A DNA stretch of 33,189 nucleotides from Acidimicrobiales bacterium. GTDB taxonomy: Bacteria; Actinomycetota; Acidimicrobiia; Acidimicrobiales; RAAP-2. A model generated the notes under the pieces. It did no database searches and was not told the origin of the DNA. It saw only the letters and a program-made list of their open reading frames with translations. The stretch spans positions 1 to 33,189 of the forward strand of contig JADMIJ010000047.1 of the NCBI GenBank assembly GCA_015478655.1, read 5' to 3'. Position 1 is the stretch's first letter. The number at the start of each line of letters is the position of its first letter. A program made the translations under genes and the position numbers. This document shows, piece after piece, positions 19,056 through 32,528 of this stretch.

Positions 19056-19131
19056 TGGTGGGGCAGGCAGGGATCGAACCTGCGACCGAGGGATTATGAG
19101 TCCCCTGCTCTGACCACTGAGCTACTGCCCC
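19056..19131 (-). tRNA. tRNA with CAT anticodon, probably tRNA-Ile2
   Basis: This is a complete 76-nt gene including encoded CCA. The acceptor GGGGCAG pairs perfectly with CTGCCCC. The D-arm is AGCTCAGTGGTCAGAGC, the anticodon stem is GGGGA/TCCCT with loop CTCATAA, and the T-arm is GCAGGTTCGATCCCTGC. The G1-C72 pair excludes initiator tRNA. The AGCTCAGTGGT-AGAGCAGG-GACTCATAATC-CT pattern closely resembles E. coli minor tRNA-Ile (lysidine-modified CAT), so Ile2 is more likely than elongator Met; a TilS-recognition test would decide. Its 5' half is the attachment core of the integrated element. Confidence 0.9.
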
Positions 19132-19132
19132 C
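19092..19132. repeat. attL: 41-bp core repeat in tRNA 5' half
   Basis: The core starts GATTATGAGTCCCC and ends CTACTGCCCCC, spanning the tRNA from its anticodon loop to its 5' end plus one flanking base. It is identical to 32488-32528. The sequences outside differ at once on both sides, which sets the repeat boundary. Confidence 0.93.
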
Positions 19133-19142
19133 GACCAGGGAT

Positions 19143-19185
19143 GCTATACTTTTCCATGAGGGTCCATCCCAACAGAATCCCAACA
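19143..19185. promoter_or_regulatory. Candidate overlapping promoters for integrase and tRNA, with integrase arm-type repeats
   Basis: A TATA core serves both strands. On plus it reads TATACT (19145-19150), the probable -10 for int with a weak -35 near 19122. On minus it reads TATAGC (19143-19148), with TTGGGA 18 bp upstream, and points at the tRNA 5' end. Two direct copies of ATCCCAACA (19166-19174 and 19177-19185) lie here; the same word recurs near the right end of the element, as expected for integrase arm sites. Confidence 0.45.
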
Positions 19186-19200
19186 AAGCGAGGGCACGTC

Positions 19201-20367
19201 ATGGATCGGTTCGACGTCATCACGGTTGAGAAGGGTATCCGACAGGTCGGTCCCCATCGGTGGGAGGTCCGGGTCTATGCCGGCCGCAACCCGGAGACGG
19301 GCGCGATCCGCCACGTCAGCCGCGGCACTACCAAAGGGATCAAGGATGCCCGCGCCATTAAGGCGCGGCTCGCCACGGAGGTTGCCGCCGGCAAGCATGG
19401 CAGCCGGTCGGGCACGTTCGGCGAGCTGCTCGACGCGTGGCTTCGCGACGGCAAGCAAGGTCGGTCGCCTAGCACGCTCGCCGGCTACCGAATCAAAATC
19501 GAAACCGCCATTCGCCCGGCCCTCGGCTCGGTGCTTCTGGAAAAACTGACCGCCCGCGACCTCGACCGGTGGTATGCGCGCCTACTGGCTGGCGGAACGT
19601 CCCCGGCGATGGTCATGCACTACCACCGGGTGATCTCGGCGGCACTGCGCCAAGCCGAGAAATGGCAAATGGTGCCCGTCAGCGTCGCCAGGAATGCGAG
19701 CCCGCCGACCGTGCCCGCCCCGGTTACCGTCACTCCCCCACCCGATCGGGTGCGCACACTGATCGACCTAGCCGGCACGACCCGGAATCCCGAGTTTGCC
19801 ACCGTGCTATTCGTCGCGGCGCTAACAGGAATGCGCCGAGGCGAGCTGGCCGGCCTGCGGTGGTCCGATATCGACTGGCAGGGGTCGGCCCTGACCGTCA
19901 CCCGGTCGATCTGGCAGACGGCGGGCGGATGGGGGCCAAAGGATCCAAAGACTCACCAGGTGCGCCGGCTAGACATCGGACCGGCCACTCTGGCTGCCCT
20001 CCGTGGCCGATGGGAGCGTGCGACCAGCGCCGCCCAGCTCGCCGAGGTCGAACTTGTGGCCGACGCGTACGTGTTCAGCCCCGACCTAACCGGCGACCGG
20101 CCCACCATGCCTGACGCCATGACGCAGGCGTTCCGACGCCTGTGCGACACGATGGCCGAGAAAACGGGCGATCCCTGGCCCTACCGTTTACACGACCTCC
20201 GCCACTACTCGGCTACGGAGCTGGTCGCCGCCGGTCACTCGATGGTCACCGTGTCGAAACGGCTCGGCCACGCAAAAGTGTCGACCACCTCGGACATTTA
20301 CGCCCATGACACGAACGATCAGGCGGTCGCCGCTGCAGCGTCCCTTGAGGCTGGGTTAGCTGGCTAG
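19201..20367 (+). CDS. int: Tyrosine recombinase (phage-type integrase)
   Basis: A 388-residue tyrosine site-specific recombinase. The N-terminal arm-binding-like region (about residues 1-60) is rich in beta-strand (WEVRVYAGRNPETG). The SAM-like core-binding domain (about 70-165) includes TFGELLDAWLRDGK. The catalytic domain has the active-site Arg in TGMRRGELAGLRW (about 212), Lys in KTHQVRRLDI (about 250), the HDLRH box (331-335), RLGHAK (His 357) and Tyr 367 in TSDIYAH. ATG 19201 is preferred over the open ATG at 19141 because GAGGG lies 9 nt upstream and the earlier start would sit in the -10 region. It would recombine attP with the tRNA. Confidence 0.95.
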   Translation: MDRFDVITVEKGIRQVGPHRWEVRVYAGRNPETGAIRHVSRGTTKGIKDARAIKARLATEVAAGKHGSRSGTFGELLDAWLRDGKQGRSPSTLAGYRIKIETAIRPALGSVLLEKLTARDLDRWYARLLAGGTSPAMVMHYHRVISAALRQAEKWQMVPVSVARNASPPTVPAPVTVTPPPDRVRTLIDLAGTTRNPEFATVLFVAALTGMRRGELAGLRWSDIDWQGSALTVTRSIWQTAGGWGPKDPKTHQVRRLDIGPATLAALRGRWERATSAAQLAEVELVADAYVFSPDLTGDRPTMPDAMTQAFRRLCDTMAEKTGDPWPYRLHDLRHYSATELVAAGHSMVTVSKRLGHAKVSTTSDIYAHDTNDQAVAAAASLEAGLAG

Positions 20368-20415
20368 GACGCCCGCTCCGCAAGCTGGGACATTTTCCCC
20401 ACTATCCGCAGACAC

Positions 20416-20445
20416 TTTTCCACAGTTACACATGTGTAATCCACA
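20416..20445. promoter_or_regulatory. DnaA-box-like pair flanking a 14-bp palindrome
   Basis: TTTTCCACA (20416-20424) and TAATCCACA (20437-20445) resemble the DnaA box TTATCCACA. Between them is the perfect palindrome TTACACATGTGTAA (20426-20439), overlapping the second box. It lies just after the integrase gene in AT-richer sequence. It may be a replication-initiation or excision control site; this is inference from motif likeness only. Confidence 0.4.
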
Positions 20446-20493
20446 AGAAGCGGGTCTACCACTACACAGGGGTTTTATGGCAGCGTCAAAGGT

Positions 20494-20583
20494 GGAGCAG
20501 TGCGAGAGCGGCCGAATCGGCGCCCTTGAAACCGGCGTGAGGAGTAACTACCTCCGAGGGTTCGAATCCCTCCTGCTCCGCCA
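20494..20583 (+). tRNA. Atypical element-borne tRNA-Ser-like gene (anticodon ambiguous, TGA/GAA)
   Basis: A 90-nt class II tRNA. The acceptor GGAGCAG/CTGCTCC is perfect, with discriminator G and encoded CCA. The D-stem is CGA/TCG, the long variable arm contains GAGG/CCTC, and the T-arm GAGGG/CCCTC is perfect. Long arm plus G73 indicate seryl identity. The anticodon stem CGCC/GGCG closes on a C-C mismatch, giving a 9-nt loop CTTGAAACC. Counting strictly with a 7-nt loop gives anticodon GAA; by analogy to tRNA-Ser(TGA), which has CTTGAAA, it would be TGA. The intact remainder argues against random decay. Confidence 0.75.
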
Positions 20584-20592
20584 AGGCGCGCA

Positions 20593-20623
20593 AAGGGCAC
20601 CGGTGAAACCTTCCGGTGCCCTT
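20593..20623 (+). terminator. Strong hairpin after the tRNA-Ser-like gene
   Basis: An 11-bp perfect stem, AAGGGCACCGG/CCGGTGCCCTT, with a 9-nt loop lies 9 bp after the tRNA 3' end. The T-tract is short, as is common in actinobacteria. It is a probable transcription terminator or tRNA 3' processing signal. Confidence 0.65.
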
Positions 20624-20698
20624 GCTAAGCCTTTCCGCTACTCCGGTCACTATCCGGCTATCGCGGGGGCCTCTGCCTTAGAACTTGGCACTGCCATT

Positions 20699-20714
20699 GT
20701 AACGCTAACGTTAC
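20699..20714. repeat. Inverted repeat GTAACG-N4-CGTTAC
   Basis: A 6-bp inverted repeat with a CTAA spacer, including the internal palindrome TAACGTTA. It is one of three AT-rich palindromes (with 20426-20439 and 21009-21023) between the integrase and the HTH switch gene, all built from TTAC/GTAA ends. It could be a regulator site. Confidence 0.35.
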
Positions 20715-20733
20715 GAGTCTCCAACCGGGCTGA

Positions 20734-20752
20734 CCTGGGATTATGTCCCAGG
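20734..20752 (-). terminator. Hairpin directly after the small leftward gene
   Basis: CCTGGGA/TCCCAGG forms a 7-bp stem with loop TTATG, ending one base from the stop codon of the leftward gene at 20754. It is probably the terminator of leftward transcription, facing the tRNA/integrase unit. Confidence 0.4.
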
Positions 20753-20753
20753 C

Positions 20754-21023: not shown

Positions 21024-21047
21024 GGCGTCCTGACCAGGGACTATGCC

Positions 21048-21335: not shown

Positions 21336-21353
21336 TGCGGGGAAATGCCCGCA
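21336..21353. promoter_or_regulatory. Operator copy 1, TGCGGGGAAATGCCCGCA
   Basis: An imperfect 18-bp inverted repeat (TGCGGG-N6-CCCGCA) located 5 bp beyond the HTH stop codon. It shares the TGCGGGGAAAT core with copies at 21591 and 21625. Confidence 0.55.
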
Positions 21354-21357
21354 GAGC

Positions 21358-21558
21358 CTACAGACGACCCGTCATCCTGGCCCACTTCTCGACCTCAGGC
21401 CATGCCCATACCCGGATCGACCCGAGCTTCGCCGCCGGCTCAGGAAAGCCGATGTCCCGCCTGATCCAGTCGTGAACGAGGGATGCCTTCTTGAGCTTCA
21501 GACGTTCGGCGACCTGCTCTGCCCCCACTAGGTCGTCGACGTCGATTCTCCGGCCCAT
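21358..21558 (-). CDS. AlpA/MerR-like HTH DNA-binding protein (Xis or switch regulator)
   Basis: A 66-residue protein with one helix-turn-helix: LVGAEQVAERLKLKKASLVH, then DWIRRDIGFPEPAAKLGSIR and VWAWPEVEKWARMTG. The winged form with G-F-P-x-P...VW...V-E-W-A matches AlpA-like excisionases and phage regulators. The three 18-bp operator copies around this gene are its most likely targets: two in the divergent region with the 21661 gene and one after its own stop. It may act as excisionase, as repressor, or both. Confidence 0.8.
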   Translation of the reverse strand: MGRRIDVDDLVGAEQVAERLKLKKASLVHDWIRRDIGFPEPAAKLGSIRVWAWPEVEKWARMTGRL

Positions 21559-21589
21559 GGCGTACAGCCTACGTCATGCAGATCGACCC

Positions 21590-21642
21590 TTGCGGGGAAA
21601 TCCCCACAGGCGTACCATGGGTGATGCGGGGAAATACCCGCA
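21590..21642 (+). promoter_or_regulatory. Promoter with operator copies 2 and 3
   Basis: TTGCGG (21590-21595), a 17-bp spacer and TACCAT (21613-21618) form a plausible promoter for the 21661 gene. Operator copy 2 (TGCGGGGAAATCCCCACA, 21591-21608) covers the -35 and spacer. Copy 3 (TGCGGGGAAATACCCGCA, 21625-21642) covers the likely start of transcription. Binding at both would block the promoter. Confidence 0.55.
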
Positions 21643-21660
21643 GTCCGAAAGGGGCAGGAC

Positions 21661-21928: not shown

Positions 21929-22507
21929 CTAGATCGGCTGGACGATCAGCCAGCGGTCGAAAAAGGTCGCCGGCCCTGGACCGGCCCCGACCTGATATTT
22001 CGCCTGAAAGGTATGATCGCCGGGAGCGATGCCGGTAACTACGGCGCCACCCATACACGACGCGCTGACGACCGACGCCGGCGTACTCAACTGTGCCGAC
22101 GGGTTACTCTGAACAGTTCCATCGATAGCAACCCACATCTCGGCGGCTCCGCCGCTTGTCGCCTGAATGTTCGCCCCGAGTAAAACGAGCGCACTACCGG
22201 ATGCCCCCACGTGCGCAGTAAGGGTCGGACCGACGGTCGCCAGGTTGGTCGGCGTTCCCGATGACGTTCCCTCGGACGTAAGTATGCTGGCAGACTGAAT
22301 CGGATTCAGCTCAGTAGTGATTCCACTCGGGTCAGTAACGGCGAATCCGTAGTCGCCGTTCGGCAGCTTGCCGCCCTGCGCCCGGATCAGCCCGCTCGCG
22401 TCACGGATCCCGAAGTTCTGTTGCATTTCGAGGGCCGTAAGGCGCTGGCGGATCTCGTCCATAAGGTTCTGGAAGTACAGGTCGTGGGGTTGAGTCACGG
22501 CGGGCAT
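21929..22507 (-). CDS. Candidate virion accessory protein (decoration/spike-like)
   Basis: A 192-residue protein. The N-terminus is helical (LYFQNLMDEIRQRLTALEMQ), then GLIRAQGGKLPNGDYGFAVT, a Ser/Thr/Gly-rich linker, and a beta-rich C-terminal half (LVLLGANIQATSGGAAEMWV, GDHTFQAKYQVGAG). The short coiled N-terminus with a beta-sandwich-like tail resembles phage tail-tip, fibre or capsid-decoration proteins. It is last in the structural block, after the capsid gene and the 48-aa gene (3-bp spacing). No known family is certain. Confidence 0.6.
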   Translation of the reverse strand: MPAVTQPHDLYFQNLMDEIRQRLTALEMQQNFGIRDASGLIRAQGGKLPNGDYGFAVTDPSGITTELNPIQSASILTSEGTSSGTPTNLATVGPTLTAHVGASGSALVLLGANIQATSGGAAEMWVAIDGTVQSNPSAQLSTPASVVSASCMGGAVVTGIAPGDHTFQAKYQVGAGPGPATFFDRWLIVQPI

Positions 22508-22509: not shown

Positions 22510-22656
22510 CTAGGCCGCCTTTCGCAGTAGACGGCTAAGCCGGTCGATCGCCTCTCGGTGACGGGGCTCCGGGTGCTCGGGATCGAGGTCGGACAGACCG
22601 ATCGCTTCGAGGGCTTCCCGAAGACGGCTCTTGGAGTAGATGACGGATGCTGCCAT
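22510..22656 (-). CDS. Small helical protein downstream of capsid (48 aa)
   Basis: A 48-codon gene starts at ATG 22656, with AAAGGA 7 nt upstream. The product is MAASVIYSKSRLREALEAIG, then LSDLDPEHPEPRHREAIDRL and SRLLRKAA, i.e. two charged helices. Good ribosome binding site and codon use, and it sits between capsid and the next structural gene. It may be a head-completion or assembly factor, but this is positional inference. Confidence 0.6.
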   Translation of the reverse strand: MAASVIYSKSRLREALEAIGLSDLDPEHPEPRHREAIDRLSRLLRKAA

Positions 22657-22829: not shown

Positions 22830-24176
22830 CTAGCTATTCGCCAGAAGCCTCATGGAGTTCGGTACCACAAGGTCACCGGCCACGCGGGCCAGGGCCAGAA
22901 AGCCACGACTTCCGATCGGCCTCATTGTCGCGGCGTCGAACATAACTGGGACCATTTCCACGGTGACGCCTTGCCTGACTGCCAGGTGGTAGCCGGACAG
23001 ATCGCCGACGGCGAGGAAGTTTTCGGCGCCCGTCGTCCCGGTGAAGTCCGGACAATACGAGCTGGTCACGCAGGGCCGGCCGAACAGCGAAGTGCCGGCC
23101 CGATCGACAACCAGGTCGACCTGCGCGGCTGCGCCGGAATCATTCCGGATCTGCGACAGGACGTCCGTGTGGAGGACGAACGTACTGGACCCCTTGAAGC
23201 GCTCCGGCACGGCATTCCAAACTCGCCGCACATCGGCGGCCGAGATCGACCCCGCAGTCGTCACGGTGACGTGAGCGGGCGAGGTCGTCGAGGCTTGCAA
23301 GGCCGTGAAGATGCCCCGCGGTTGCCCGGTCCCGGTTCCCACGGCAACAACGTCGGTCAGCAAGTCGGCGAAGCCACGAGCGATCATCGGCGTGTATTCG
23401 TCGAGAAAGCCGGCGCCTCCGTAATCGGCGAACAGCTCGTCCGATACCGGGATGAACGCCCGCGCCGTCTGAACCGCCAGAGACGGCTGCACGAGGGTCG
23501 GTGTGTTATCGCCGACAACTGCGTTTTCCGCTTGGAATCCCCACCCGGATCCGTCCGAAATGACCGGCTTGTAGACGTTCGTCGAAGTCTGCTTGACCGA
23601 AACGAGCGACGGCAGTGTCGCGAGTTCCTGCGAACTCGGGACGATGCTCGGGTCGATATCGACAGGCAACGCGAGCCCAAACGAGCCACCCTCAGAGGCG
23701 CTCCGCACTTCGTCGTGGTAGCGACGAACCGCGCTCGCTTCCTCCGGCGTGTAGTGCGGATGTTCCTCGCGCAATGACCGCTCGATCGCCGATCGATAGG
23801 CCGGCGCAGTCGTAACGATGGTCCGGATCGCGAGTTCGGTGTCGCCAGCTCGGATTTGTCGGTCGAGGGCGTCGATCTGGAATGATTCCAGACGGTCGGC
23901 GGACCGGATCTCAAGAGCCTTAAGACTTGCGTCTCGGACCTCTGTCGGTTTGGCACTGCGAATGTCGATTGATTCAGGCGACCGATTAAGGAAGGCGTGA
24001 CCCTTCGCTACCGTCTTTTGGTGTTGAAGGTCGGCGTGGCGCCGCTTGGCCGCGTTCAGCTCGGCCAGCGCCGTCCGATAATGGCCGAGGGCCGTCTGCT
24101 CGGCGAGGGTCATGTTCTTTCCCCGAGATTCGATGCGCCGAATGTTCTTGATTATGTCTTCGCTCTGTGTAGCCAT
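22830..24176 (-). CDS. HK97-fold major capsid protein
   Basis: A 448-residue protein. Residues 1 to about 150 form a charged helical N-terminal region (delta/scaffold-like; RGKNMTLAEQTALGHYRTAL and HADLQHQKTVAKG). Residues 160-448 have HK97 capsid features: VYKPVISDGSGWGFQAENAV, ARAFIPVSDELFAD, GTGTGQPRGIFTALQAS (P-loop region), TFVLHTDVLSQIRND, FLAVGDLSGYHLAVRQGVTV and SRGFLALARVAGDLVV at the end. No separate prohead protease gene exists nearby, so the N-terminal region may stay uncleaved or depend on a helper protease. ATG 24176 is the first start. Confidence 0.9.
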   Translation of the reverse strand: MATQSEDIIKNIRRIESRGKNMTLAEQTALGHYRTALAELNAAKRRHADLQHQKTVAKGHAFLNRSPESIDIRSAKPTEVRDASLKALEIRSADRLESFQIDALDRQIRAGDTELAIRTIVTTAPAYRSAIERSLREEHPHYTPEEASAVRRYHDEVRSASEGGSFGLALPVDIDPSIVPSSQELATLPSLVSVKQTSTNVYKPVISDGSGWGFQAENAVVGDNTPTLVQPSLAVQTARAFIPVSDELFADYGGAGFLDEYTPMIARGFADLLTDVVAVGTGTGQPRGIFTALQASTTSPAHVTVTTAGSISAADVRRVWNAVPERFKGSSTFVLHTDVLSQIRNDSGAAAQVDLVVDRAGTSLFGRPCVTSSYCPDFTGTTGAENFLAVGDLSGYHLAVRQGVTVEMVPVMFDAATMRPIGSRGFLALARVAGDLVVPNSMRLLANS

Positions 24177-24292: not shown

Positions 24293-25813
24293 TCAGTGGT
24301 CGAGGCTCGATAGCGATGGCCCGTAGCTGAAGAAACAGTCCGCCTCGTCATCGGCGTTCATGGCGCCGTAAAGGGCGATGGTGCAAGCCACGAGCGCGCT
24401 CACGTCTGCCTTCCGTCTGCCCCAAGTCCACCGGTCGCCCAGCGGTCGCTTCACGGCGCCGGCTACGGCGGCGGTCAGGACCGCTTCGCCCTTGTGTCGG
24501 AGCCCTTCCTCCATCACCGCGTCGTAGAACGAGCCTGCGGCGGCCGCTATGGCGGAAGTATCCAACGTCGTAAGCGGGATCTCTCGGCGTTCTAGCTCGG
24601 GGATGAGTGATGCGGCAGGGCCATGATCGTCGACGTAGACCGCGCCTCCGTACTCCTCGACCAGTTCGACGAGGCGATCGACCACCCAGCCCGTGCCCTG
24701 GTCCCACTGGACGACCTCGACGTGCGGGAGATCATCGCTCCGCACGCCGGCCACGGCGATACAGGCGGTATCTCGACTGAGCGGGATATCGAAGGCGAAG
24801 ATCTTTCGCCCATCGATGGTCGATTCGGTGTCCCGGCACGACTCCCAGCGGTCCATATCAATGACCGACGGGGTGCTCGTTGCGGTACTGGGCCAATCTC
24901 CTGCCCCCAGTCGCTCCACTGCGAAGGTTCGGGGGTGCACAGACCTGCGCTCGTCCTCGATATGGTCCTCGCTGATGCGAATCCCCAATGCCGGATTGGC
25001 CATCGCCCAACTCTGCGGATCGCTGGCCACCGCGTCGGTGATCTTGTCGAGATCGCCGGGGATACTCCATTCGAAGTAAGCCAACGATGGATCATCTCCG
25101 GCGATGCCTCGCTCGCGCAGCCGGGCCAACACAACACCGTCGGCGTGAACCATTTGGTCGACCGCCGAGCCCGCATAGATCACTTGTGGATTCGGCCGAG
25201 CGCTCAGGGTCGGCAGCAGGGCGCCAAGTGCGGCCTCTTGGAGGAACATTGCCTCGTCGAAGACGACCAGATCCGCCGAAAACCCTCGGCCGCCACCCTT
25301 CGTCCGGGTCCGAAATCGGATCCGCTGGCCACTTTTCAGTTCGATGCCCTCGTCGCCATGCGACCTCGACACCCGCTTGACGCGTCGTTTGAACTCCGGA
25401 GTGCCGTCGATGATGGCGTCGAGCCGGGAGAAATGCTCAAGCGAGGTGCTGAAATCGTGGGCGGAGTGCACGATGAACCGCTCGTCGAACAGGAATAGGC
25501 CGGCCAACTCGCGGGCCAGGAGAATCGCGCCCTTGCCGTTCTGCCGACCGACGACCTGTGCGGCCTCGAAGGCCGCCCACTTGCCGTCGGCACCTTCGGC
25601 GCACAGGTGGGTCAAGACGAACCGTTGCCACTCGTCGAGGTGGAGCCCGGCGCTTGCTGCCAGCTCGATTGCCTCGGCGCCGGAGCTGGACACGGCCGGC
25701 GGCACGCTAAAGATGCGCGGGCGCTGCGATCCGAGCGTCATTCGGTCACCCATTGTCTGTCGTCGCGATCCGGTGGGCCCGGCGACTGGCGAGATCATCG
25801 ATTTGGTCGTCAT
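24293..25813 (-). CDS. Terminase large subunit
   Basis: A 506-residue phage DNA-packaging motor (Terminase_1-like). The ATPase domain has Walker A GRQNGKGA (89-96), Walker B LVVFDEA (182-188) and a SAHDFSTSLEHFSRLD coupling region. The C-terminal RNase-H-like nuclease has FAFDIPLSRDTACIAVAG with Asp 342, AVYVDDHGP and RKADVSALVACTIALYGA with a late Asp. ATG 25813 has a strong AAAGGAGG site, although this start lies 68 nt inside the small-subunit gene. Length and motifs are complete. A 116-bp gap with two small hairpins separates it from the capsid gene, so no portal gene can lie between them. Confidence 0.93.
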   Translation of the reverse strand: MTTKSMISPVAGPTGSRRQTMGDRMTLGSQRPRIFSVPPAVSSSGAEAIELAASAGLHLDEWQRFVLTHLCAEGADGKWAAFEAAQVVGRQNGKGAILLARELAGLFLFDERFIVHSAHDFSTSLEHFSRLDAIIDGTPEFKRRVKRVSRSHGDEGIELKSGQRIRFRTRTKGGGRGFSADLVVFDEAMFLQEAALGALLPTLSARPNPQVIYAGSAVDQMVHADGVVLARLRERGIAGDDPSLAYFEWSIPGDLDKITDAVASDPQSWAMANPALGIRISEDHIEDERRSVHPRTFAVERLGAGDWPSTATSTPSVIDMDRWESCRDTESTIDGRKIFAFDIPLSRDTACIAVAGVRSDDLPHVEVVQWDQGTGWVVDRLVELVEEYGGAVYVDDHGPAASLIPELERREIPLTTLDTSAIAAAAGSFYDAVMEEGLRHKGEAVLTAAVAGAVKRPLGDRWTWGRRKADVSALVACTIALYGAMNADDEADCFFSYGPSLSSLDH

Positions 25814-26066
25814 GGTCCTCCTTTGGCGGGATCTGAGCGGTCAGGCGGGCGAGTGCGTCGACGAGGGCTCGTGAGCACATGGATTTAGCGGTAGCGCTCG
25901 TCCTAGGGGAGTCGATCGACTGGGCCAGGGCCAGGGCCATAGCGGCCAGGCCGCCGGTAGCGAGGTTCGGGGATGTCTCGGCGATGGCGTCGAGGTCGCG
26001 TTGGACGGCTCGGCCGACATCACCAGTCGGGCGAGCGATAACTTTGCTGACTGGCTTGCGTGGCAC
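25746..26066 (-). CDS. Terminase small subunit
   Basis: A 106-residue protein starts at GTG 26066 (MPRKPVSKVIARPTG). The core DLDAIAETSPNLATGGLAAM, then ALALAQSIDSPRTSATAKSM and CSRALVDALARL, matches actinobacteriophage small terminases, which bind pac/cos DNA. It overlaps the HNH gene by 47 nt and the large subunit by 68 nt, in different frames. A longer open frame upstream is not family-like. Confidence 0.85.
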   Translation of the reverse strand: MPRKPVSKVIARPTGDVGRAVQRDLDAIAETSPNLATGGLAAMALALAQSIDSPRTSATAKSMCSRALVDALARLTAQIPPKEDHDDQIDDLASRRAHRIATTDNG

Positions 26067-26424
26067 GTGTGATCCTCTCTTTGGTCCGGCCGGACGTCGC
26101 CCTATTGCAGGCAGCGTGCTCGGGGCCCGTGTATCGGGTGCGGTCGTTGTCGTCGTGGCCGAGATCCCATGCGGCGCCCGGCTCGATCGGCACGCCGCAG
26201 CGGGCACAGGCGACAGTGCCCGCGGCCACTGCCGGCGCCCACCGTTCTCGCAGTCGACGATGGACTGAGCCATAGCCCCTAGCCGTCGTAGAGGGCCTAA
26301 GACGGGTATCAGGGGTCCTGTTCCGGCGCCTCGCACCCGTCGGTGGCTGCCGGCAGGACTCACAGAGCCGGCGCCGGCGCGACAGGGTTGGGCCACCACA
26401 ACTGCGGCAGGGTCGTGAAAGCAT
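26020..26424 (-). CDS. HNH endonuclease (packaging-associated)
   Basis: A 134-residue protein with an N-terminal zinc knuckle (CRSCGG...CESC, residues 6-24), the RGYGSVHRRLRERW helix (49-62), and an HNH/GH-type nuclease centre. This centre is CARCG (73-77), WDLGHDDND (His 90, Asp 91/92), YTGPEH (His 103) and CNRATSG (Asn 107). HNH genes next to terminase act in cos cleavage and packaging in many HK97-type phages. ATG 26424 has GGAGG about 9 nt upstream. Confidence 0.9.
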   Translation of the reverse strand: MLSRPCRSCGGPTLSRRRRLCESCRQPPTGARRRNRTPDTRLRPSTTARGYGSVHRRLRERWAPAVAAGTVACARCGVPIEPGAAWDLGHDDNDRTRYTGPEHAACNRATSGRTKERITRATQASQQSYRSPDW

Positions 26425-26770
26425 TGAGAATCGCCTCCAAACGGGCGAAATGGGGCCAAAATGAGCGATAGGGAAGATTTGAGAATGGTTCGCTATTTGC
26501 CCTGGTCGGGGGGCGTTCGCCGGATTTCGACCATCGGGGAGAGGATTTTTTCGACTCCCGGGTCTCTGACCAGGTGTTTTACCCGTTGACTACCCTACCC
26601 CCATGGGGTATAGCCGGAGGAGCCGCCGCGACTACACGACTACCGGCAGGGCAGGGCAGGCCGGTCGATTCGACTTCGACTTGCTTGCTGCACCACGCCA
26701 CACGACGCGACGACGACACGACCACGGTGCGCACGTACACGATGGCGACTCGCGTCGTCACCACTCACCA
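26425..26770. other. 346-bp non-coding gap between early and late leftward blocks
   Basis: No gene is supported here. It contains two copies of the motif YGACCAGG (minus at 26500-26508, plus at 26567-26574), a CCCCATGGGG palindrome near 26600 and an AT-rich patch near 26440-26500. It is a likely site of the promoter for the HNH-terminase-capsid block, although no good -35/-10 pair was found. Confidence 0.4.
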
Positions 26771-26941
26771 TCACCAATCGTCGCCACCTTCGTCGGGCGG
26801 TCGGTCGACGAGCAGGGATGTGGCGAAGCCGCATCGCTGACACCACAAGATGGGCGTCGGCGTCTGGCCCATTCCCATCATCATCGTTCCTCCGCAGCGG
26901 CACTCGTTCCACTTTCGCTCGGCGCCGTCGTTGCGTCTCAT
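26771..26941 (-). CDS. Small zinc-ribbon protein (56 aa)
   Basis: A 56-codon gene starts at ATG 26941 (MRRNDGAERKWNECRCGGTM), overlapping the upstream stop by ATGA. Two cysteine pairs, CRCGG and CQRCGF, form a zinc ribbon, and the tail is acidic (PPDEGGDDW). A longer open frame upstream was rejected because the preceding 57-aa gene occupies it in another frame. Function unknown; it is the last gene of the early leftward chain. Confidence 0.65.
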   Translation of the reverse strand: MRRNDGAERKWNECRCGGTMMMGMGQTPTPILWCQRCGFATSLLVDRPPDEGGDDW

Positions 26942-27111
26942 TGACTCACTCTCTCTATCCGGTCGACGATCTTCGAGGTCGCGTGGTGCCGGCCACACTG
27001 CAGTCCGATCGACAGCGAGTCCGGTCGGTCGGTCATCCTCGTCTCCTTGACCACACGCAAGGTGGAACCGCAGTGGCATGTCTCGACGTAACTCCAAGGC
27101 CAGCGCTTCAT
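26938..27111 (-). CDS. Small zinc-binding protein (57 aa)
   Basis: A 57-codon gene: MKRWPWSYVETCHCGSTLRV, then VKETRMTDRPDSLSIGLQCG and RHHATSKIVDRIERVSQ. CHC and CGRHH could bind zinc. Both ends are coupled: its ATG overlaps the stop of the 27392 gene, and its stop overlaps the start of the next zinc-ribbon gene, each by ATGA. That double coupling is the main evidence that it is real. Confidence 0.65.
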   Translation of the reverse strand: MKRWPWSYVETCHCGSTLRVVKETRMTDRPDSLSIGLQCGRHHATSKIVDRIERVSQ

Positions 27112-27392
27112 CGCTTCGACTCCATTTCCATTCGTGTCGCTACATCGACCGGACCGAACTCGATTTGCCGGAACCGAGTCGCCAGCTCTCGCAACGCCGG
27201 CTCGTCATCGCCAGCGGTGAGCAGCTCGTCGACAACCGCCTCGCCTTCGTCTGTCGTCAGGAAAACGTGGCCGTACCCTTCGGACCGGTGCAGCTTGAAT
27301 CGGACGGTGAAAATACCGACCGGGTGCTCGTGAACGGTTAGCTCGCCGTCGACCAGGGGCGTTTCATACCGAACTTGTGGCGCGTCAATCAA
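27108..27392 (-). CDS. Hypothetical protein of the early operon
   Basis: A 94-residue protein starts at TTG 27392, with GGAAGG about 10 nt upstream. Text: MIDAPQVRYETPLVDGELTV, then HEHPVGIFTVRFKLHRSEGY, with an acidic C-terminal helix (EPALRELATRFRQIEF). It is a soluble alpha/beta protein of unknown family. Its stop overlaps the following start (ATGA). Confidence 0.6.
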   Translation of the reverse strand: MIDAPQVRYETPLVDGELTVHEHPVGIFTVRFKLHRSEGYGHVFLTTDEGEAVVDELLTAGDDEPALRELATRFRQIEFGPVDVATRMEMESKR

Positions 27393-27425: not shown

Positions 27426-27806
27426 CTACCGGTCGGCGTCGACATCGGCGGGCGCGTCCACCTTCGCCCACTGATCGACTGCCGGCGGCGCCGTCGGCGT
27501 TGCTTCAGGGTCGACCAATGCAGCTCGTGCAGCTCGCCGTGCGGTCGAGCGGGCCCGGTCCCTGGCATCGGACATCTGGCAATCGGCGAAGATCAGCGCC
27601 CTCCATGCTCGCTGATCCTGCGATGCCAGGGTCGACAGCTCAGCCTCAAGTACGGCGATCTCGGCCAGGACGACGTTCTTGGCATCCCGCGCCTTGTCGA
27701 ACTGCTCGCCGGCACGGGCATAGGCCGCCTCGGTCTTTGCTACGTCCGCTGCGGCGCTCTCGGCCGCCTCGATCAAGGTCGTTGCTACGTCTGCGTCGTC
27801 AATCAT
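27426..27806 (-). CDS. Coiled-coil hypothetical protein
   Basis: A 126-residue protein starts at ATG 27806, overlapping the upstream stop by ATGA, with GGAGA upstream. Residues about 10-75 form an Ala/Glu-rich coiled coil (TLIEAAESAAADVAKTEAAY, EQFDKARDAKNVVLAEIAVL). The C-terminal tail is Pro/Asp-rich (PEATPTAPPAVDQWAKVDAP). Function unknown. Confidence 0.6.
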   Translation of the reverse strand: MIDDADVATTLIEAAESAAADVAKTEAAYARAGEQFDKARDAKNVVLAEIAVLEAELSTLASQDQRAWRALIFADCQMSDARDRARSTARRAARAALVDPEATPTAPPAVDQWAKVDAPADVDADR

Positions 27807-28030
27807 TTCGGTCTCCTCACGCTCCAACGGATGACTAGATCGCCGTCAGAGCTAACGATTGGGTGCCAGTCGGCGATGCGCAGCGCAGACCGATCAATAT
27901 CTGCCGGTGCGATTCCCTCTCGACGCGCCGTTAGGTGGGCGTCGGAACGGTCGATCACGGCTGCTGCGAGGAAGGCTCTAAGCCAGTTGTCGAGGTCGTC
28001 GTCGGTCACGGCTCTGACCAGGGCAAACAA
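27803..28030 (-). CDS. Small hypothetical protein next to the origin (up to 75 aa)
   Basis: The start is either TTG 28030 or GTG 28009 (MTDDDLDNWLRAFLAAAVID...). It ends in a basic stretch (LVIRWSVRRPK). Its stop overlaps the next ATG by ATGA. The TTG start lies at the edge of an iteron and inside a 32-bp sequence duplicated 60 bp upstream; the duplicated copy soon meets a stop. Expression could therefore be affected by Rep binding to the origin. Confidence 0.5.
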   Translation of the reverse strand: MFALVRAVTDDDLDNWLRAFLAAAVIDRSDAHLTARREGIAPADIDRSALRIADWHPIVSSDGDLVIRWSVRRPK

Positions 28031-28285
28031 CCCGTCCCACTCGTCGACCAGGGTTTATGCGGCGGGGACGGCTCTGACCAGGGCAAACAACCCGTCCCAA
28101 AACAACCCGTCCCTATACCCTCCGGACCGGGACGGGTTGCACCCGCCCGGCCCGTCGGCGAGTAGAGGCGATTCAAGTCGTCCCAACAACTCGTCCCAAC
28201 AAATGGGACGGGTTCTTTCGGCAGGTCAGAATGCATTTTCCGACCCCTCGTCGCCCCAACCCGTCCCGTTTGAATGGGACGGGTT
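28008..28285. repeat. Iteron array: putative replication origin of the element
   Basis: AACCCGTCCC occurs perfectly seven times in about 260 bp: forward at 28029, 28089, 28104 and 28258, and inverted at 28129-28138, 28205-28214 and 28276-28285. Variant copies start at 28188 (one mismatch) and 28175 (two). The last two perfect copies form a 10-bp inverted pair with an 8-bp spacer, inside the 3' end of the RepA-like gene. A 32-bp unit is repeated exactly 60 bp apart (28008-28039, 28068-28099). Clustered iterons beside a Rep ATPase are the classic layout of iteron-controlled origins. Confidence 0.75.
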
Positions 28286-29740
28286 GAAAGCCGGCCCCCA
28301 TAACTCGCGCTTTTTCGTGGTTCCGGCCTCTGTACTGCCGAGCCTGTCGTGTCGGATCTCCCCATCCTGGGCCATCTCATCGAAGCAGCGAAAGAACATA
28401 TCGGCGTTGCCGCCGACGATCGTCCGAATCTTCGCTTTGGTCAGTTCGAACGGGTGATCGGTTACCGTGTCCGAGATCCGTCGGCGCATTTCATACTCTT
28501 TCTCGGACCGCTTGTCGTTCTTCGACTTCGCCCCGTTAGACCTGTTCAGGTCCCACGTGATCTCGCCGTCATGTGACCCAGTGTCCTGGTCGAACCGGCC
28601 GATCGATATATCGAGATCCCACGACGTACCGCCCCACTGCCTCGAACCGACCTCAAACGTCAGCCGGAACACGCCGCCGTCGACGTCCGGCTGCTCTCGG
28701 TGAGCGATCAGAACCCACGAGTCAGCCCATTCTCCGGAGCCGGCCATCGTGATCCGTTTCAGCCCCGCGCCCGATCCGGTCTGGTTGTAGTGGTTGACGA
28801 CGGCCAGGCTGGCCCCAACGTCCATGCACGGCCCCGAAAGCTGATTGAGCAGCGATCCCTCTTGGTGAAGGTCAGCGGCCCGCGTGTCGGTCCCGTGGTA
28901 GGTGTAGAGAGGATCGAGCGTCACGAGGCCAGGATTCAGCTCGTCGAGGTCGCGCCGTAGCGAGTCCTGAAACGTGAGGCTCGAAATCGGCGCCACGTCG
29001 AACGACGGGTGAAGGTCGATATCTGCCGGCGTCGTGCCCATCGCCGAGCAGATCCGACGCATACGCCTTGTCCAGAGTCGCCGACCGCCCTCGCCGACGT
29101 AGGCCACGACGGGTCGCTGTGCTGGCGGGGCAAAATGCCCGAAGATGGGCAATCCGGCGGCGATGCCGACCTCTATGAACCCGGTGACGTAGCTCTTTAG
29201 AGTCTTCATCTCACCGGCGATCTGTCCGTAGGTGGGATCGGCGAATAGGCCGGCGGCGAGCCACTCGAACTCGCACGGCTCAGCCAGTAGCTCGGCCATC
29301 GTCCACCGCTTGAACATGGCTTGCTCGCGCTGGATCCGTTCCTGCTCTACTGTCGTCCGGTTGCGGTGGGCCTCTACGTGCGGCCTGAATGCCTTAGCAC
29401 GCGACTCGGGTGTCATTCCGAGGACGAGGGCCGCTACGCCCTTTTCGTCGCCCCCGAACTCTCTGACGAGGGCGGCCCGGAGCCAGGGGTCGGTACGAAG
29501 AAGTCCGTTCCACGGGTCTTCAGCGCCATTGTCTGCGTAAGTAGCGACATCGGTTACCGATGAGTGCAGAATGACCCCGCTCGTGCTCGTGGAGCCCGCA
29601 GACTGTTCCCGTTCGTCGCGCTGGCGCTTGAACTCAGCGCCAACTGCGGCGATACGTTTGGAATCGCCTTGTCGTTCGGCCACCTTGAGCGCTTCCGCCA
29701 GTTGCGGACCGCTCATCGCCTTCAGGTCGGCGGCGCTCAT
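28226..29740 (-). CDS. RepA-like AAA ATPase, replicative helicase/initiator
   Basis: A 504-residue protein. Residues 1-150 are helical and charged. Residues 155-400 form a RecA/AAA_25-like ATPase with the variant Walker A AGEMKTLKS (175-183, the GxxKxxKS form), VVAYVGEGG (211-219), Walker B LVTLDPL (272-278) and a sensor-like SLAVVNHYNQTGSGAG (311-326). The C-terminus (about 420-480) includes a winged-helix-like segment (RRRISDTVTDHPFELTKAKI). ATG 29740 overlaps the SSB-like stop by ATGA; a longer open frame is rejected. Related proteins are helicases of plasmids and satellites. The iterons begin inside its own 3' end. Confidence 0.85.
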   Translation of the reverse strand: MSAADLKAMSGPQLAEALKVAERQGDSKRIAAVGAEFKRQRDEREQSAGSTSTSGVILHSSVTDVATYADNGAEDPWNGLLRTDPWLRAALVREFGGDEKGVAALVLGMTPESRAKAFRPHVEAHRNRTTVEQERIQREQAMFKRWTMAELLAEPCEFEWLAAGLFADPTYGQIAGEMKTLKSYVTGFIEVGIAAGLPIFGHFAPPAQRPVVAYVGEGGRRLWTRRMRRICSAMGTTPADIDLHPSFDVAPISSLTFQDSLRRDLDELNPGLVTLDPLYTYHGTDTRAADLHQEGSLLNQLSGPCMDVGASLAVVNHYNQTGSGAGLKRITMAGSGEWADSWVLIAHREQPDVDGGVFRLTFEVGSRQWGGTSWDLDISIGRFDQDTGSHDGEITWDLNRSNGAKSKNDKRSEKEYEMRRRISDTVTDHPFELTKAKIRTIVGGNADMFFRCFDEMAQDGEIRHDRLGSTEAGTTKKRELWGPAFNPSHSNGTGWGDEGSENAF

Positions 29741-30021
29741 TGGTCCGCCTCCGCCGTCTCGAAGGCGATTTGACGGGCGACGAGCGTGAGCCGGCCGCCC
29801 CTGGTCTGCCGGAGGTGGCCCCCTACATGACAGAGCGTGCCGTCCCGGACGATCTTTTCGCCCGACGAAGCCACGGCGCCGTAGGCATTGATCCGGACCA
29901 CGGTGGCGTCGCCGCGGGCGCTGAACTCGGTCAGGTCGAAGTTGAAATATCGGCCGCCGCCGTTGGGGAGATCGCCGGCAGCGAGGTCCGATGCCGTCCC
30001 TGAGAAAAAGCTTGCGTTCAT
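29737..30021 (-). CDS. SSB-like OB-fold protein
   Basis: A 94-residue protein with GGRYFNFDLTEFSARGDATV, then VRINAYGAVASSGEKIVRDG and TLCHVGGHLRQTRGGRLTLV. The strand pattern (R-Y-F-N-F-D, V-V-R-I-N-A-Y-G, G-x-L-R...L-x-L-V-A) resembles single-stranded DNA-binding OB folds. It precedes the RepA-like gene with an ATGA overlap and starts at ATG 30021, which itself overlaps the stop of the long zinc-finger frame. A role in coating DNA during element replication is likely. Confidence 0.65.
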   Translation of the reverse strand: MNASFFSGTASDLAAGDLPNGGGRYFNFDLTEFSARGDATVVRINAYGAVASSGEKIVRDGTLCHVGGHLRQTRGGRLTLVARQIAFETAEADQ

Positions 30022-31238
30022 CGTGTGTGCCTCTCGTTAAGTCGCCGGGCCCCACCGGGGCCCTGGGTTAGATGATCGGGTGACGGGCTAGGAACGCCTC
30101 GTAGGAGCCGCGGCGTATCCGGATGCAACGGGGTCCGAGGTGGTAGGAGTCGAGCTGTCCACTGGCCAGCCACCGGCGAACGGTCCTCTCGGTGCGCCCG
30201 GTCTGCCGAACGATTGTGGTCACGTCGAGATCGTCTGGGTGGTAGTCCATCTGTCTCCCTGTCTTTTGTCATGACTGCTTCCGGCAAATAAAGATTCGGT
30301 TGACTTTCGCCGACACTTCCATTATATTTCATCGTGGTAGAAAGTCCCTGGTCACAGGCACTTTGACCCCCTACCACTGGCACCTTTCTCGCGTTCGGCA
30401 ACGTCTTGTCGACCTCGCCGAGCGAGAGCGCCAACTTGCCTCGTCGCCGTCGAAGGAACGCGTCGTATCGATCGTCCCATGGCTTGCCGGAGCGCTGCCA
30501 GGCCCGCTCGCAGAATCGACAAACCTGGTCCTGACGGAAGTTGTCGGGGTTCTCCCGGAGGCACACGAGGCAGCGGAGGAACACGCCGTGATCGTCGTCC
30601 TCCGGGTGTATGCGCCTCGGGTCAAGGCGCCGGTTGTAGGCGCTCGCTCCGTTAACCGTCGGCAGTTGCGCCGATCGGGTTTGCCACGGATAGCGGGCTC
30701 GCTCCGTCCGCCCTCGGATAATCCACGACGGCGTTTTGCGCATAGGCGGCTCGTAATAGTCGCCGATGGCCTTGCTAATGCCCTCCCGGTCTTTCAGGGC
30801 ATCCCACTTGCCAAGCAGCTCGGCAGGGCCCCGTGGTCGATGCCACGGACTCCTATTCGTTTCCGCTGGCATCCTGTCTGTCCGGCCGCACTCGTCGCAC
30901 TCGTAGCGAGCGCTGATGGGGCCGCTTCCACCGCACCAGATGCACCCATCGGGATACCTGCCAGCAGCGGCGGGCTTAGGACTCCGGTCGATGTCGACGG
31001 AGGCGTACGGCCACAGGTCGACCACGGGGTCTTCCCAGTTTCGCGGTTCGCAGTCCCCGCACCGCGGCCAGTCCGGCCACTCTGGCGTTTTGAAAGGTTG
31101 CCCGCATGCCGTGCACGATCGGACATGCATCCGTCGCGGGACGGTCATCCGCCATGCGGTGATCTGTTGCCGTGTCGGCGTGTCGTCGGTGTCGTCTGGC
31201 GAGTTGCCCGGTAGCCGGGTTTGCCCCACATCGTTCAT
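30018..31238 (-). CDS. Multi-zinc-ribbon protein with unusual overlapping C-terminal frame
   Basis: A 406-codon frame from ATG 31238. The first 275 or so residues look genuine and carry three cysteine modules: CTACGQPF...CGDC, CIWCGG...CDECG and CLVCLRE...CRFCERAW. The last 130 residues pass through a promoter-like AT-rich stretch and then the whole HTH gene in another phase, where they become Arg/Pro-rich. Yet the stop overlaps the SSB-like start by ATGA, as in the neighbouring gene pairs. Either the long product is real and the region codes twice, or the native stop was lost. Function unknown; zinc ribbons suggest DNA or protein binding. Confidence 0.6.
   Translation of the reverse strand: MNDVGQTRLPGNSPDDTDDTPTRQQITAWRMTVPRRMHVRSCTACGQPFKTPEWPDWPRCGDCEPRNWEDPVVDLWPYASVDIDRSPKPAAAGRYPDGCIWCGGSGPISARYECDECGRTDRMPAETNRSPWHRPRGPAELLGKWDALKDREGISKAIGDYYEPPMRKTPSWIIRGRTERARYPWQTRSAQLPTVNGASAYNRRLDPRRIHPEDDDHGVFLRCLVCLRENPDNFRQDQVCRFCERAWQRSGKPWDDRYDAFLRRRRGKLALSLGEVDKTLPNARKVPVVGGQSACDQGLSTTMKYNGSVGESQPNLYLPEAVMTKDRETDGLPPRRSRRDHNRSADRAHREDRSPVAGQWTARLLPPRTPLHPDTPRLLRGVPSPSPDHLTQGPGGARRLNERHTR
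30068..30250 (-). CDS. Small HTH DNA-binding protein (60 aa)
   Basis: A 60-residue protein: MDYHPDDLDVTTIVRQTGRT, then ERTVRRWLASGQLDSYHLGP and RCIRIRRGSYEAFLARHPI. This is a MerR/HTH_17-type fold as in excisionases and small regulators. ATG 30250 has GGGAG 5 nt upstream. It lies wholly inside a larger open frame in another phase (30018-31238). The perfect -10 TATAAT at 30321-30326 points to it. Confidence 0.8.
   Translation of the reverse strand: MDYHPDDLDVTTIVRQTGRTERTVRRWLASGQLDSYHLGPRCIRIRRGSYEAFLARHPII
30300..30354. promoter_or_regulatory. Overlapping opposed promoters plus TGACCAGGG motif
   Basis: On plus: TTGACT (30300-30305), a 17-bp spacer, TATATT (30323-30328). On minus: a perfect -10 TATAAT (30321-30326) without a good -35; instead TGACCAGGG (30354-30346) covers the -35 position. 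The minus promoter would drive the HTH-SSB-RepA genes, perhaps with an activator. The plus promoter would make RNA antisense to the zinc-finger gene. Confidence 0.5.
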
Positions 31239-31315
31239 CGGTCATCCCTGCGTTGCCGCTTCTGATTGCTACGCGGACCCGTCATGGGCCGCGTGTTTGG
31301 GTTGTCGGGTGGGCC

Positions 31316-31846
31316 CTAATGAGCGCTGTTAGGCGTACCGGGATGAGACGCTTCGGGCGCCACGCCGTCGTCGCCGTGGACGAACGTTCTATCGAACAGC
31401 TCGGCGATGGTGGCCGGCTCGCGTGCGTTCGTCGGCGGCGCTTTCTGCCCGGACAGGTGTTCGTCGAATAGGGCAGTCGTCGAGTCGAGGTCCGCCCGCA
31501 GGTCACCTATTGCTTGATCTAGCCGGCGCTTCAAACCGTCGATCTCGGCGACACGCCCGTTCAGCGCCTCCAACGTCGAGCCAAATAATAGTTGCCTACC
31601 CTTGCGGCGCAGGAGGGCGTCGACGCCTTCCGGCCGAACCGTGTGCGTGAGGATTCCGAAATCGGCCAGGGCCGCGTGCATCCGGATTTGAGCATCGCTA
31701 AGTCGATCGCTCCCGCGCTTTAGTTCGAGGGCGTATCCCTGCTGCCCTCCGGGCGTGAACACAAGGAAATCAGGCCAACCGTTTCGGAGAACCGTGCATC
31801 CTCGTCTCACAAGGGCATCGTGAACCGATTGCTCGAAGGCGTTCAT
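31316..31846 (-). CDS. VRR-NUC-like PD-(D/E)xK nuclease
   Basis: A 176-residue protein. The N-terminal 75 residues carry the nuclease signature: GWPDFLVFTPGG (PD), ALELKRGSDRLSDAQ (ExK) and IRMHAALADFGILTHTV, fitting the VRR-NUC fold. Residues about 95-125 form a coiled coil (LNGRVAEIDGLKRRLDQAIG) and the tail is low-complexity. ATG 31846 overlaps the stop of the terminal HTH gene by ATGA. Such nucleases in phages are linked to DNA repair or branched-DNA processing. Confidence 0.75.
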   Translation of the reverse strand: MNAFEQSVHDALVRRGCTVLRNGWPDFLVFTPGGQQGYALELKRGSDRLSDAQIRMHAALADFGILTHTVRPEGVDALLRRKGRQLLFGSTLEALNGRVAEIDGLKRRLDQAIGDLRADLDSTTALFDEHLSGQKAPPTNAREPATIAELFDRTFVHGDDGVAPEASHPGTPNSAH

Positions 31847-32064
31847 GCCGCGTCGCCGGTCTGTGCTGGCAACTCCCCCAGCATCCGGCGTAGCGGTGCC
31901 ACGGGGACGACAAGACGCGCGCCGAGGGCAATGGTAGGGATCTGGCCGGACGAAGCGGCCGAGTAGGCGCTATTGCGGCACAGGCCGAGAATGGCCCCGG
32001 CTACCGGGACGGTGACGGTGGTTTGGGACCGCCAGTCGGCGGGGATTGAGTCAAGGGACGGCAT
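31843..32064 (-). CDS. Xis-like HTH protein at the right end
   Basis: A 73-residue protein with TVTVPVAGAILGLCRNSAYS, then AASSGQIPTIALGARLVVPV and APLRRMLGELPAQ. The pattern A-x-x-LG-x-x-RNSAY-x-AAxxGxIPTIxLGxRxxVP is that of actinobacterial HTH_17 excisionase-like proteins. It is the first gene of the leftward operon, next to attR, and may be Xis or the early regulator. The 423 bp to its right (32065-32487) hold no supported gene. Confidence 0.8.
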   Translation of the reverse strand: MPSLDSIPADWRSQTTVTVPVAGAILGLCRNSAYSAASSGQIPTIALGARLVVPVAPLRRMLGELPAQTGDAA

Positions 32065-32343
32065 CGGAGTGTGGACCTCTCGGAGTCAGGGTGCCCCAAA
32101 TGAAGGCACGGTTTCTGAACTCCGGGTGGTCATTTTCGCGAACCGCGCGCTCGGCGACATTGCGCCTCGCACGCGAGCGATCCTCCCGGCCGTATCACGA
32201 CGGAGTGATGATCCCTCACCACCAAGCCCGGATTCTGTACTCGGCCACTGTCCGATCAGGTTCGGTTCGTCAGCGCCTATATGGGTCCGGGTGCCGTACT
32301 GCAAAATCCAACCTACCGTCGGCCGCGGCGGTAGGCAAGCAGG

Positions 32344-32383
32344 TTGGGTCACATTGGGTCACATCCCAACACACAACCCAACA
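32344..32383. repeat. Integrase arm-type repeats near attR
   Basis: Two tandem copies of TTGGGTCACA (32344-32353, 32354-32363) are followed by ATCCCAACA (32363-32371) and AACCCAACA (32375-32383). ATCCCAACA also occurs twice next to attL (19166, 19177). A repeated word at both element ends, about 35-55 bp and 105-145 bp from the cores, fits arm sites of a lambda-type integrase. Confidence 0.55.
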
Positions 32384-32487
32384 ACGCTCCCGGTCGGTTT
32401 GGTTCGGAATGAACTCAACCCCTGGCCAACGTCTATACGGTGGTTTGGGATGGTATTGGATAGTCCCAGGTCAGACGTGTACGCCGC

Positions 32488-32528
32488 GATTATGAGTCCC
32501 CTGCTCTGACCACTGAGCTACTGCCCCC
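32488..32528. repeat. attR: 41-bp remnant of tRNA 5' half
   Basis: Identical to 19092-19132. Only the 5' half of the tRNA is here (D-arm to anticodon loop); the left neighbour is element sequence, so this copy cannot make a tRNA. It marks the right element boundary. Confidence 0.93.

Follow-up and report, generated by a model that had tools for sequence, protein, structure and literature searches.

A tRNA-integrated element of an Acidimicrobiales bacterium with its own terminase and HK97-fold capsid protein and no recognised portal

Introduction

Capsid-forming phage-inducible chromosomal islands (cf-PICIs) carry an integrase. They encode their own major capsid protein (MCP) and their own HNH endonuclease and small and large terminase subunits (TerS and TerL), and use the tail of a helper phage (PMC10690885; this and the other reports are cited for part of their text). 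We analyzed a 33,189-nucleotide stretch of DNA from an Acidimicrobiales bacterium (contig JADMIJ010000047.1 of assembly GCA_015478655.1, positions 1 to 33,189 of the forward strand; the window), which contains an integrated element that is like cf-PICIs in its MCP and terminase. cf-PICIs also encode a portal, a head maturation protease, and head-tail connectors (PMC10690885), whereas a check of the element for these features recognised none of the three. The MCP, TerL, and HNH were present, as was TerS by homology only.

Mycobacterial candidate PICIs were given a working definition of integration machinery plus an MCP gene, and some of them include terminase and helicase genes; the word "portal" is absent from the main text of that report (PMC10654092). 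The element has the integrase and MCP gene of this definition, and its host is not a mycobacterium.

We propose, with moderate confidence, that the element is an integrated satellite that would finish its heads with the portal, protease, connectors, and tail of a helper. The proposal is based on a bounded unit in a tRNA gene that holds an integrase, a replication ATPase with iterons, HNH, TerS, TerL, and a full-length MCP, and no recognised portal or protease. An initial annotation of this DNA had argued that portal and tail must come from a helper; this fits the sequence, and the protease is missing too.

Results

Boundaries and core genes of the element

The element comprises 13,437 bp (19092-32528) and is bounded by two attachment sites. 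Its core features are as follows.

19092..19132, no strand: left attachment site (attL), perfect 41-bp direct repeat identical to the 5' half of tRNA-Met
32488..32528, no strand: right attachment site (attR), the other copy of the perfect 41-bp repeat
19201..20367, + strand: tyrosine integrase, 388 aa from the chosen ATG, in an open reading frame (ORF) that opens at 19141; phrog_1 (3e-68), PF00589 (3.1e-18)
22830..24176, - strand: HK97-fold MCP, 448 aa; PF05065 (2.7e-33)
24293..25813, - strand: TerL, 506 aa; phrog_9 (2.8e-77), 58% identical to TerL of viral locus L011
25746..26063, - strand: TerS, start uncertain; homologous to the ORF preceding TerL in phages
26020..26424, - strand: HNH endonuclease of the packaging cassette; phrog_1808 (1.3e-17)
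28030..28284, no strand: iteron array, seven ACCCGTCCC copies on both strands
28226..29740, - strand: RepA-like AAA_25 replication ATPase (Rep), 504 aa; PF13481 (5.9e-16)

The repeat ends and tRNA insertion, the integrase, the ATPase with iterons, and the HNH, TerL, and capsid assignments of the initial annotation were thus confirmed. TerS was supported by homology only: it is 45-57% identical to the ORF preceding TerL in related phage loci and has no convincing PHROG or Pfam family match. Motif words were located in the integrase and TerL sequences, and we take the former to be catalytic and the latter to have their usual role. The packaging genes are arranged in the transcription order HNH-TerS-TerL-MCP.

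The host tRNA-Met occupies 19056-19131 (- strand), and the left repeat spans its 5' half, through the anticodon; the rebuilt tRNA therefore takes its 5' half from the element. The idea that the element also supplies a promoter to this tRNA was dropped, as a scan found no promoter-like site. The 41-bp repeat occurs twice in the source genome (draft assembly, 347 contigs), at the two element ends. In ten genomes of the same genus, 40 of its 41 bases recur at 11 places with 97.5-100% conservation; these derive from 17 loci, picked for matching the host tRNA-Met, of which six were overlapping copies. As expected of a satellite, this is a discrete integrated element with an integrase and attachment repeats, and PHROG and Pfam searches showed that a full virion gene set is absent from it.

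All seven ACCCGTCCC copies lie inside 28030-28284 (mean 0.72 and maximum 4 in 100 shuffles), and the array is the probable origin. From attL, the gene order is integrase (+), a tRNA, small ORFs with a helix-turn-helix (HTH) gene, and then, on the - strand, a fibre-like gene, a 48-aa ORF, MCP, TerL, TerS, and HNH. Small ORFs, the iterons, Rep, a 94-aa ORF, an HTH gene, a cysteine-rich ORF, a VRR-NUC gene, and another HTH gene follow up to attR. Called genes occupy about 79% of the element, so that its earlier description as having very little unused sequence was somewhat strong.

Search for portal, protease, and connector genes

The PHROG search used 20 queries representing the 19 called protein ORFs (at E <= 0.1 or E <= 1), and the Pfam search used 17 queries covering 16 of the 19. 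In the first loci collected, our own portal profile, built from 77 ORFs, picks out 77 ORFs and our own protease profile 67; both were run against all open frames of at least 60 aa. No portal, protease, or connector was found in the 19 called ORFs by PHROG at these limits, as the initial annotation had stated, at a sensitivity that small divergent connectors could escape. The two own profiles gave no match in the element, partial matches included. A hidden portal was rejected, PHROG, Pfam, and the own portal profile all being negative; the sole large ORF without a family (30018-31238) is cysteine-rich and has no significant match.

In the annotated phages compared, TerL is followed by at most one small gene, the portal, and then protease and MCP. 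In the element, TerL and MCP are separated by 116 bp, and no remnant or broken copy of the missing head or tail genes was found, with no partial portal or protease match.

The earlier statement that the element is tail-less proved slightly too strong because of one gene.

21929..22507, - strand: putative fibre protein, 192 aa; phrog_7565 (3.3e-12)

This protein aligns with the last 125 of the 882 residues in a profile of minor tail proteins. Sixty-nine phage records match it, all from Mycobacterium, at 30-32% identity in the 20 listed; no relatives were found in viral contigs. An N-terminal helix followed by strands is predicted in a low-confidence model (predicted local distance difference test score, pLDDT, 44) that was too poor for a structure search.

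Capsid protein

AlphaFold2 modeling of the MCP (28 alignment rows, mean pLDDT 75) gave about 160 mostly helical residues followed by the HK97 fold, and the N-terminal region is predicted to be a delta-like domain. The best Foldseek match was the head of the mycobacteriophage Mycofy1 (9lw6); further matches were to capsids of gene transfer agents and of the cf-PICI EcCI2 (9gyi), and encapsulins ranked lower. In phmmer, 9lw6 was the sole convincing match (3.2e-33).

It is conceivable, and in our estimate unlikely, that this MCP builds no shell alone and instead combines with the helper capsid protein in small heads formed on the helper portal. The precedent is Ccm of SaPIbov5, which is reported not to form capsids alone: with its delta domain removed, it assembles with the helper capsid protein, procapsids of this kind contain the portal, and no satellite protein other than Ccm was detected in the particle (PMC8569155). 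The trimming of Ccm by the helper protease is an assumption of its authors, who leave another protease open (PMC8569155). Our element likewise has no recognisable protease or portal. However, its predicted helical N-terminal region is about 160 aa, compared with 87 in Ccm and 128 in the phi12 capsid protein (PMC8569155), so that it looks like a full capsid protein, and an own TerL and HNH exceed what redirection requires.

Relatives of the terminase and replication genes

We surveyed TerL relatives in viral contigs (best 80 of 100 loci, some of them near-copies). The own profile found a portal in 71; four loci hold less than 1.5 kb past TerL, and five have no profile match. Four of these five (L042, L064, L071, and L084) carry a portal of another PHROG family. 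Thus 75 of the 76 loci with at least 1.5 kb downstream carry a portal, and a terminase cassette without one appears to be rare. The exception is L011 (viral contig, 1-7740), which has HNH, TerS, TerL, and protease and no MCP or portal match in 7.7 kb. In a tree of 73 rows, from which the TerLs of L220, L216, and L217 were left out and which has long branches elsewhere (L100, L095, and L226), the TerLs of L011 and the element are sister rows among phage terminases (support 100/98; 58% identity). Because the only locus of the 76 without a portal is also this sister, the loss of the portal looks persistent. Secreted-type ORFs, by our own reading, follow the packaging genes of L011.

Rep led to a second set of relatives. 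L220 (the same locus as L108) shares 60% identity in Rep and 42-43% in the integrase, and has a primase, TerS, TerL, HNH, and an MCP of another PHROG (phrog_617, 2.7e-6); no portal or protease was recognised in it. Its length is at least about 13.2 kb, the left end being cut. A tRNA-Lys adjoins the integrase, with tRNA-His and tRNA-Arg beyond. L216, from a metagenome-assembled genome (MAG) of Actinomycetes, has an integrase, Rep (61%), and TerL, followed near the contig end by an ORF that we read as transposase-like. L217 (on the L109 contig, an Acidimicrobiia MAG) has an integrase, Rep (49%), and a TerL of 377 aa, with no MCP or portal match. L107/L110 is a weak Rep match (about 33%) on a 4.3-kb contig that matches none of our profiles. 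Among the five Rep homologues (element, L220, L216, L217, and L110), TerL is present in four, MCP in two, and a portal match in none, L216 and L110 being incomplete.

Relatives of the capsid gene

A single-MCP query found no relatives in genome contigs or in viral contigs. In a survey of viral MCP loci (best 80 of 358, portal status by the own profile), 66 have a portal, eight are too short upstream, and six have none (L136, L152, L153, L158, L186, and L200). L152, L153, L158, and L200 combine an integrase match, a protease, and an MCP with no portal match, and by sequence they resemble the published mycobacterial candidate PICIs. A satellite-type integrase profile matched in none of the 66 portal-bearing loci (4-21 kb each). 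L186 is 7.5 kb long and has no integrase match. L136 was withdrawn as a portal-less locus: the contig ends there, and its ORFs upstream give matches to families of head protease, virion, and ADP-ribosyltransferase proteins. Two of its ORFs (260-3009) have PHROG matches of the ADP-ribosyltransferase and head-protease types and precede its protease and MCP genes. Tape-measure genes of about 1340 aa accompany protease and MCP in L153 (9454-13503) and L158 (9027-13037), matching phrog_2337 at 2e-136 and 9.7e-173, which makes an odd mix of head and tail genes, and L200 has an ORF of similar size.

Searches of cellular genomes detected MCP loci outside the source genome in 7 genomes among 296 of the class and 7 among 347 of the order, with 11 loci from 11 different genomes in all. 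Four carry a portal (L091, L095, L111, and L112), and three have an integrase and no portal match (L092, L097, and L113), L092 and L113 being cut near the MCP by contig ends. No portal was seen in the other four (L093, L094, L096, and L103), which are cut or unclear. L097 has an imperfect 33-bp repeat (82%) with copies 9.0 kb apart, and in L113 a tRNA-Val adjoins the integrase. A glycosyltransferase-like gene (9250-9987; phrog_13126, 9.4e-17) lies directly before the MCP of L113.

Assembly of the head module and the insertion site in other genomes

The similarities of TerL and MCP to those of the element showed no positive relation (Spearman rho -0.21, p 0.08; 68 loci, some near-copies). The best TerL match and the best MCP match sit in different loci. 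By tblastn (E <= 1e-4), 16 of the 18 best TerL loci have no MCP; nine of these 16 have one by profile, and none was detected in the rest. The best MCP loci that also hold TerL show 39-41% identity in MCP and only 44-48% in TerL. These comparisons favour, short of proof, a head module assembled from different phages rather than decay of one prophage.

We also inspected this tRNA-Met in the ten genomes of the same genus. A related integrase lies beside it in two. In G566 (contigs C63 and C137; L132 and L134), the integrase is split over two ORFs, a tRNA half-copy is on another contig, and the genes after the integrase have no portal, MCP, or protease match. In G562 (contig C408, L236), the integrase shares 44% identity with that of the element, and three very large ORFs (964-1762 aa) come after it; the 20 kb contain no match to portal, MCP, protease, or TerL. 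Five own profiles detected no head genes beside this tRNA in 20-kb stretches. No full prophage was found at this tRNA in same-genus stretches of 1.6-20 kb, among which there is no same-species genome. A clean empty site was not demonstrable, since the flanks diverge (46 bp at 80% match on the right, in one genome).

These results bear on decay, in which a larger phage would have shed its portal, protease, connectors, tail, and lysis genes and left the element as a remnant. The structural genes are of phage type, and some relatives, such as L217, look eroded. A TerL search of the class (E <= 1e-40) found 6 of 395 genomes including the source genome, and the five other relatives all have portals. 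We nevertheless consider decay quite unlikely: the main ORFs are open, the attachment repeats are exact, the TerL-MCP junction is clean, the best TerL and MCP matches are in separate loci, and no phage head gene matched beside this tRNA in the same-genus stretches. L011 and L220 also have no recognised portal, which makes simple decay of one prophage less likely. The outcomes named earlier as contrary to a satellite, a portal or tail gene in the element or full relatives at the same site, did not appear in the sequences examined, and none of the five portal-bearing class relatives was shown to lie in this tRNA.

Other features of the element

The remaining features are as follows.

20494..20583, + strand: carried tRNA, probably Ser(TGA) by our own reading of the anticodon; Phe(gaa) by ARAGORN
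21358..21558, - strand: DNA-binding or excisionase-like protein, 66 aa; phrog_597 (2.9e-6)
21336..21643, no strand: three similar palindrome-like sites of about 19 bp (at 21336, 21591, and 21625) flanking the small HTH gene
22510..22656, - strand: ORF, 48 aa; no PHROG or Pfam match
26425..27107, no strand: about 680 bp without a called gene, adjoining the terminase cassette
27108-27392, 27426-27827, and 27803-28030, - strand: three small ORFs without a meaningful match (27803-28030: PHROG at E <= 1 only)
29737..30021, - strand: ORF, 94 aa; very weak OB-fold hint (PF01336, E=0.067, below cut-off)
30068..30250, - strand: HTH or excisionase-like protein, 60 aa; HTH_17 (1.7e-4, below curated cut-off), phrog_66 (1.9e-4)
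30251..31238, - strand: cysteine-rich ORF, its CxxC pairs being our own reading; no significant PHROG or Pfam family
31316..31846, - strand: VRR-NUC nuclease; PF08774 (9e-6), phrog_93 (4.2e-8)
31843..32064, - strand: HTH_17 protein (6.7e-4, below curated cut-off), 60% identical over 58 aa to a stretch of L097

The carried tRNA has a long variable arm and the anticodon loop CTTGAAA, which we read as Ser(TGA). It resembles four other places in the source genome (72-78% identity), and no Rfam tRNA match at gathering score was obtained at 20494-20583. The sites of about 19 bp are possible repressor operators, and 26425-27107 is, from its position only, a candidate cos/pac region. The frame of the cysteine-rich ORF is open down to 30018, 230 bp into the HTH gene at 30068-30250, in a different frame.

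A defence-family scan of six element proteins and four proteins of relatives gave a weak VRR-NUC match (E 0.008) and an RTasDnaG-like match in L109; no convincing defence family was found among the six. Satellites often interfere with helper phages, and interference would then fall to the head genes, but a role outside the virion, with the terminase cutting or hampering helper DNA, the MCP disturbing helper assembly, and transfer by other means, is very improbable, given HNH, TerS, and TerL in their usual phage order and the recurrence of terminase and MCP together in L220 with another MCP family.

Discussion

In the satellite reading that we favour, the element would excise and replicate from its iterons when a helper phage is present. 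Its HNH, TerS, and TerL would cut and select element DNA. A terminase docks at the portal, and the packaging motor of the element would dock on that of the helper. The portal is commonly assumed to be the nucleus of head assembly (PMC8569155); around that of the helper, a small head would form from satellite MCP, either by itself or in mixture with helper MCP. The helper protease would trim the delta domain of the satellite MCP, and the particle would be finished with connectors and a tail from the helper; the 192-aa fibre-like protein may sit on the head as a decoration or change the tip of the tail. We infer from the absence of genes which parts the helper supplies; that the element encloses its DNA in a shell of its own making is an inference as well.

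Several points weigh against this reading. No particle, induced DNA, helper, or cos site was seen, and the sequence does not tell the Ccm route from the own-shell route. No PF04860 or PF05133 portal was found in the source genome (draft), and thus no resident helper of those portal types. L011 and L220 are incomplete contigs, and the L220 MCP is barely over the Pfam cut-off (24.8 versus 24.2 bits). The TerLs of L216 and L217 were missed by our own TerL profile and rest on PHROGs; the latter is short (377 aa) and its locus has no MCP match, so some relatives may be decayed. No close relative was found, the best identities being 61% for Rep, 58-60% for TerL, 41% for MCP, 44% for the integrase, and 68% over 75 columns for HNH.

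An element that keeps shell and motor without the connecting ring would reveal to what extent mobile elements can share head parts, and would open the fit of a portal to its terminase and to its capsid to direct tests. It would also extend portal-less capsid-bearing satellites to Acidimicrobiia and offers two searchable markers, the replication ATPase and the TerL sub-lineage. More tentatively, and somewhat against the odds, it may belong to long-lived "split-head" satellites of Actinomycetota, with their own motor and shell, no portal or protease, and heads that are chimeras assembled about a portal vertex taken from a helper; selection would then act on satellite terminase and MCP to fit the portals of helpers. 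That the fibre-like protein helps a tail-poor particle to ride on its helper, by analogy with MiniFlayer, is a highly speculative variant.

Among described systems, the mycobacterial candidate PICIs, including those like phiRv1 and phiRv2, are like the element small Actinomycetota elements with integrase and MCP, some of them in tRNA genes (PMC10654092). L153, L158, and L200, taken as this kind from their flanking ORFs, have an integrase and a protease that precedes the MCP, and no portal or TerL match. They differ from the element, which has HNH, TerS, and TerL and no protease, and L153 and L158 add the tape-measure gene. The missing portal separates the element from cf-PICIs (PMC10690885), as first noted, but is not unique to it, since other elements here have integrase and MCP and no recognised portal. 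The Streptomyces satellites MulchRoom and MiniFlayer share with the element an Actinomycetota origin and an own capsid and terminase (PMC10690885). Unlike the element, they have a portal, a scaffold, and a head-to-tail adapter, and no recognisable primases or replicases according to the part of that report cited; MiniFlayer has short tail fibres (PMC10690885). The Charybdis marine elements were rejected as close kin, being described in the cited part of their report as without HK97 capsid, terminase, and portal (PMC12324425).

SaPIbov5 Ccm is, like the element MCP, a satellite homologue of an HK97-type capsid protein, and it works with helper capsid parts; it differs in its shorter delta domain and in replacing the helper capsid protein at pentamers (PMC8569155). 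Tailed actinophages such as the Rhodococcus phage Shagrat have a TerL and capsid fold homologous to those of the element, but Shagrat encodes, in order, TerL, portal, an MCP fused to the protease, an adaptor, and tail genes. The literature searched, which was mostly non-subscription, yielded no account of a capsid satellite that bears a terminase and has no portal. Portal-less elements with integrase and capsid gene that resemble the mycobacterial candidate PICIs (PMC10654092) were also found here, and Ccm (PMC8569155) is a mechanistic precedent; what looks new is that a complete terminase occurs with neither portal nor protease, and in Acidimicrobiia.

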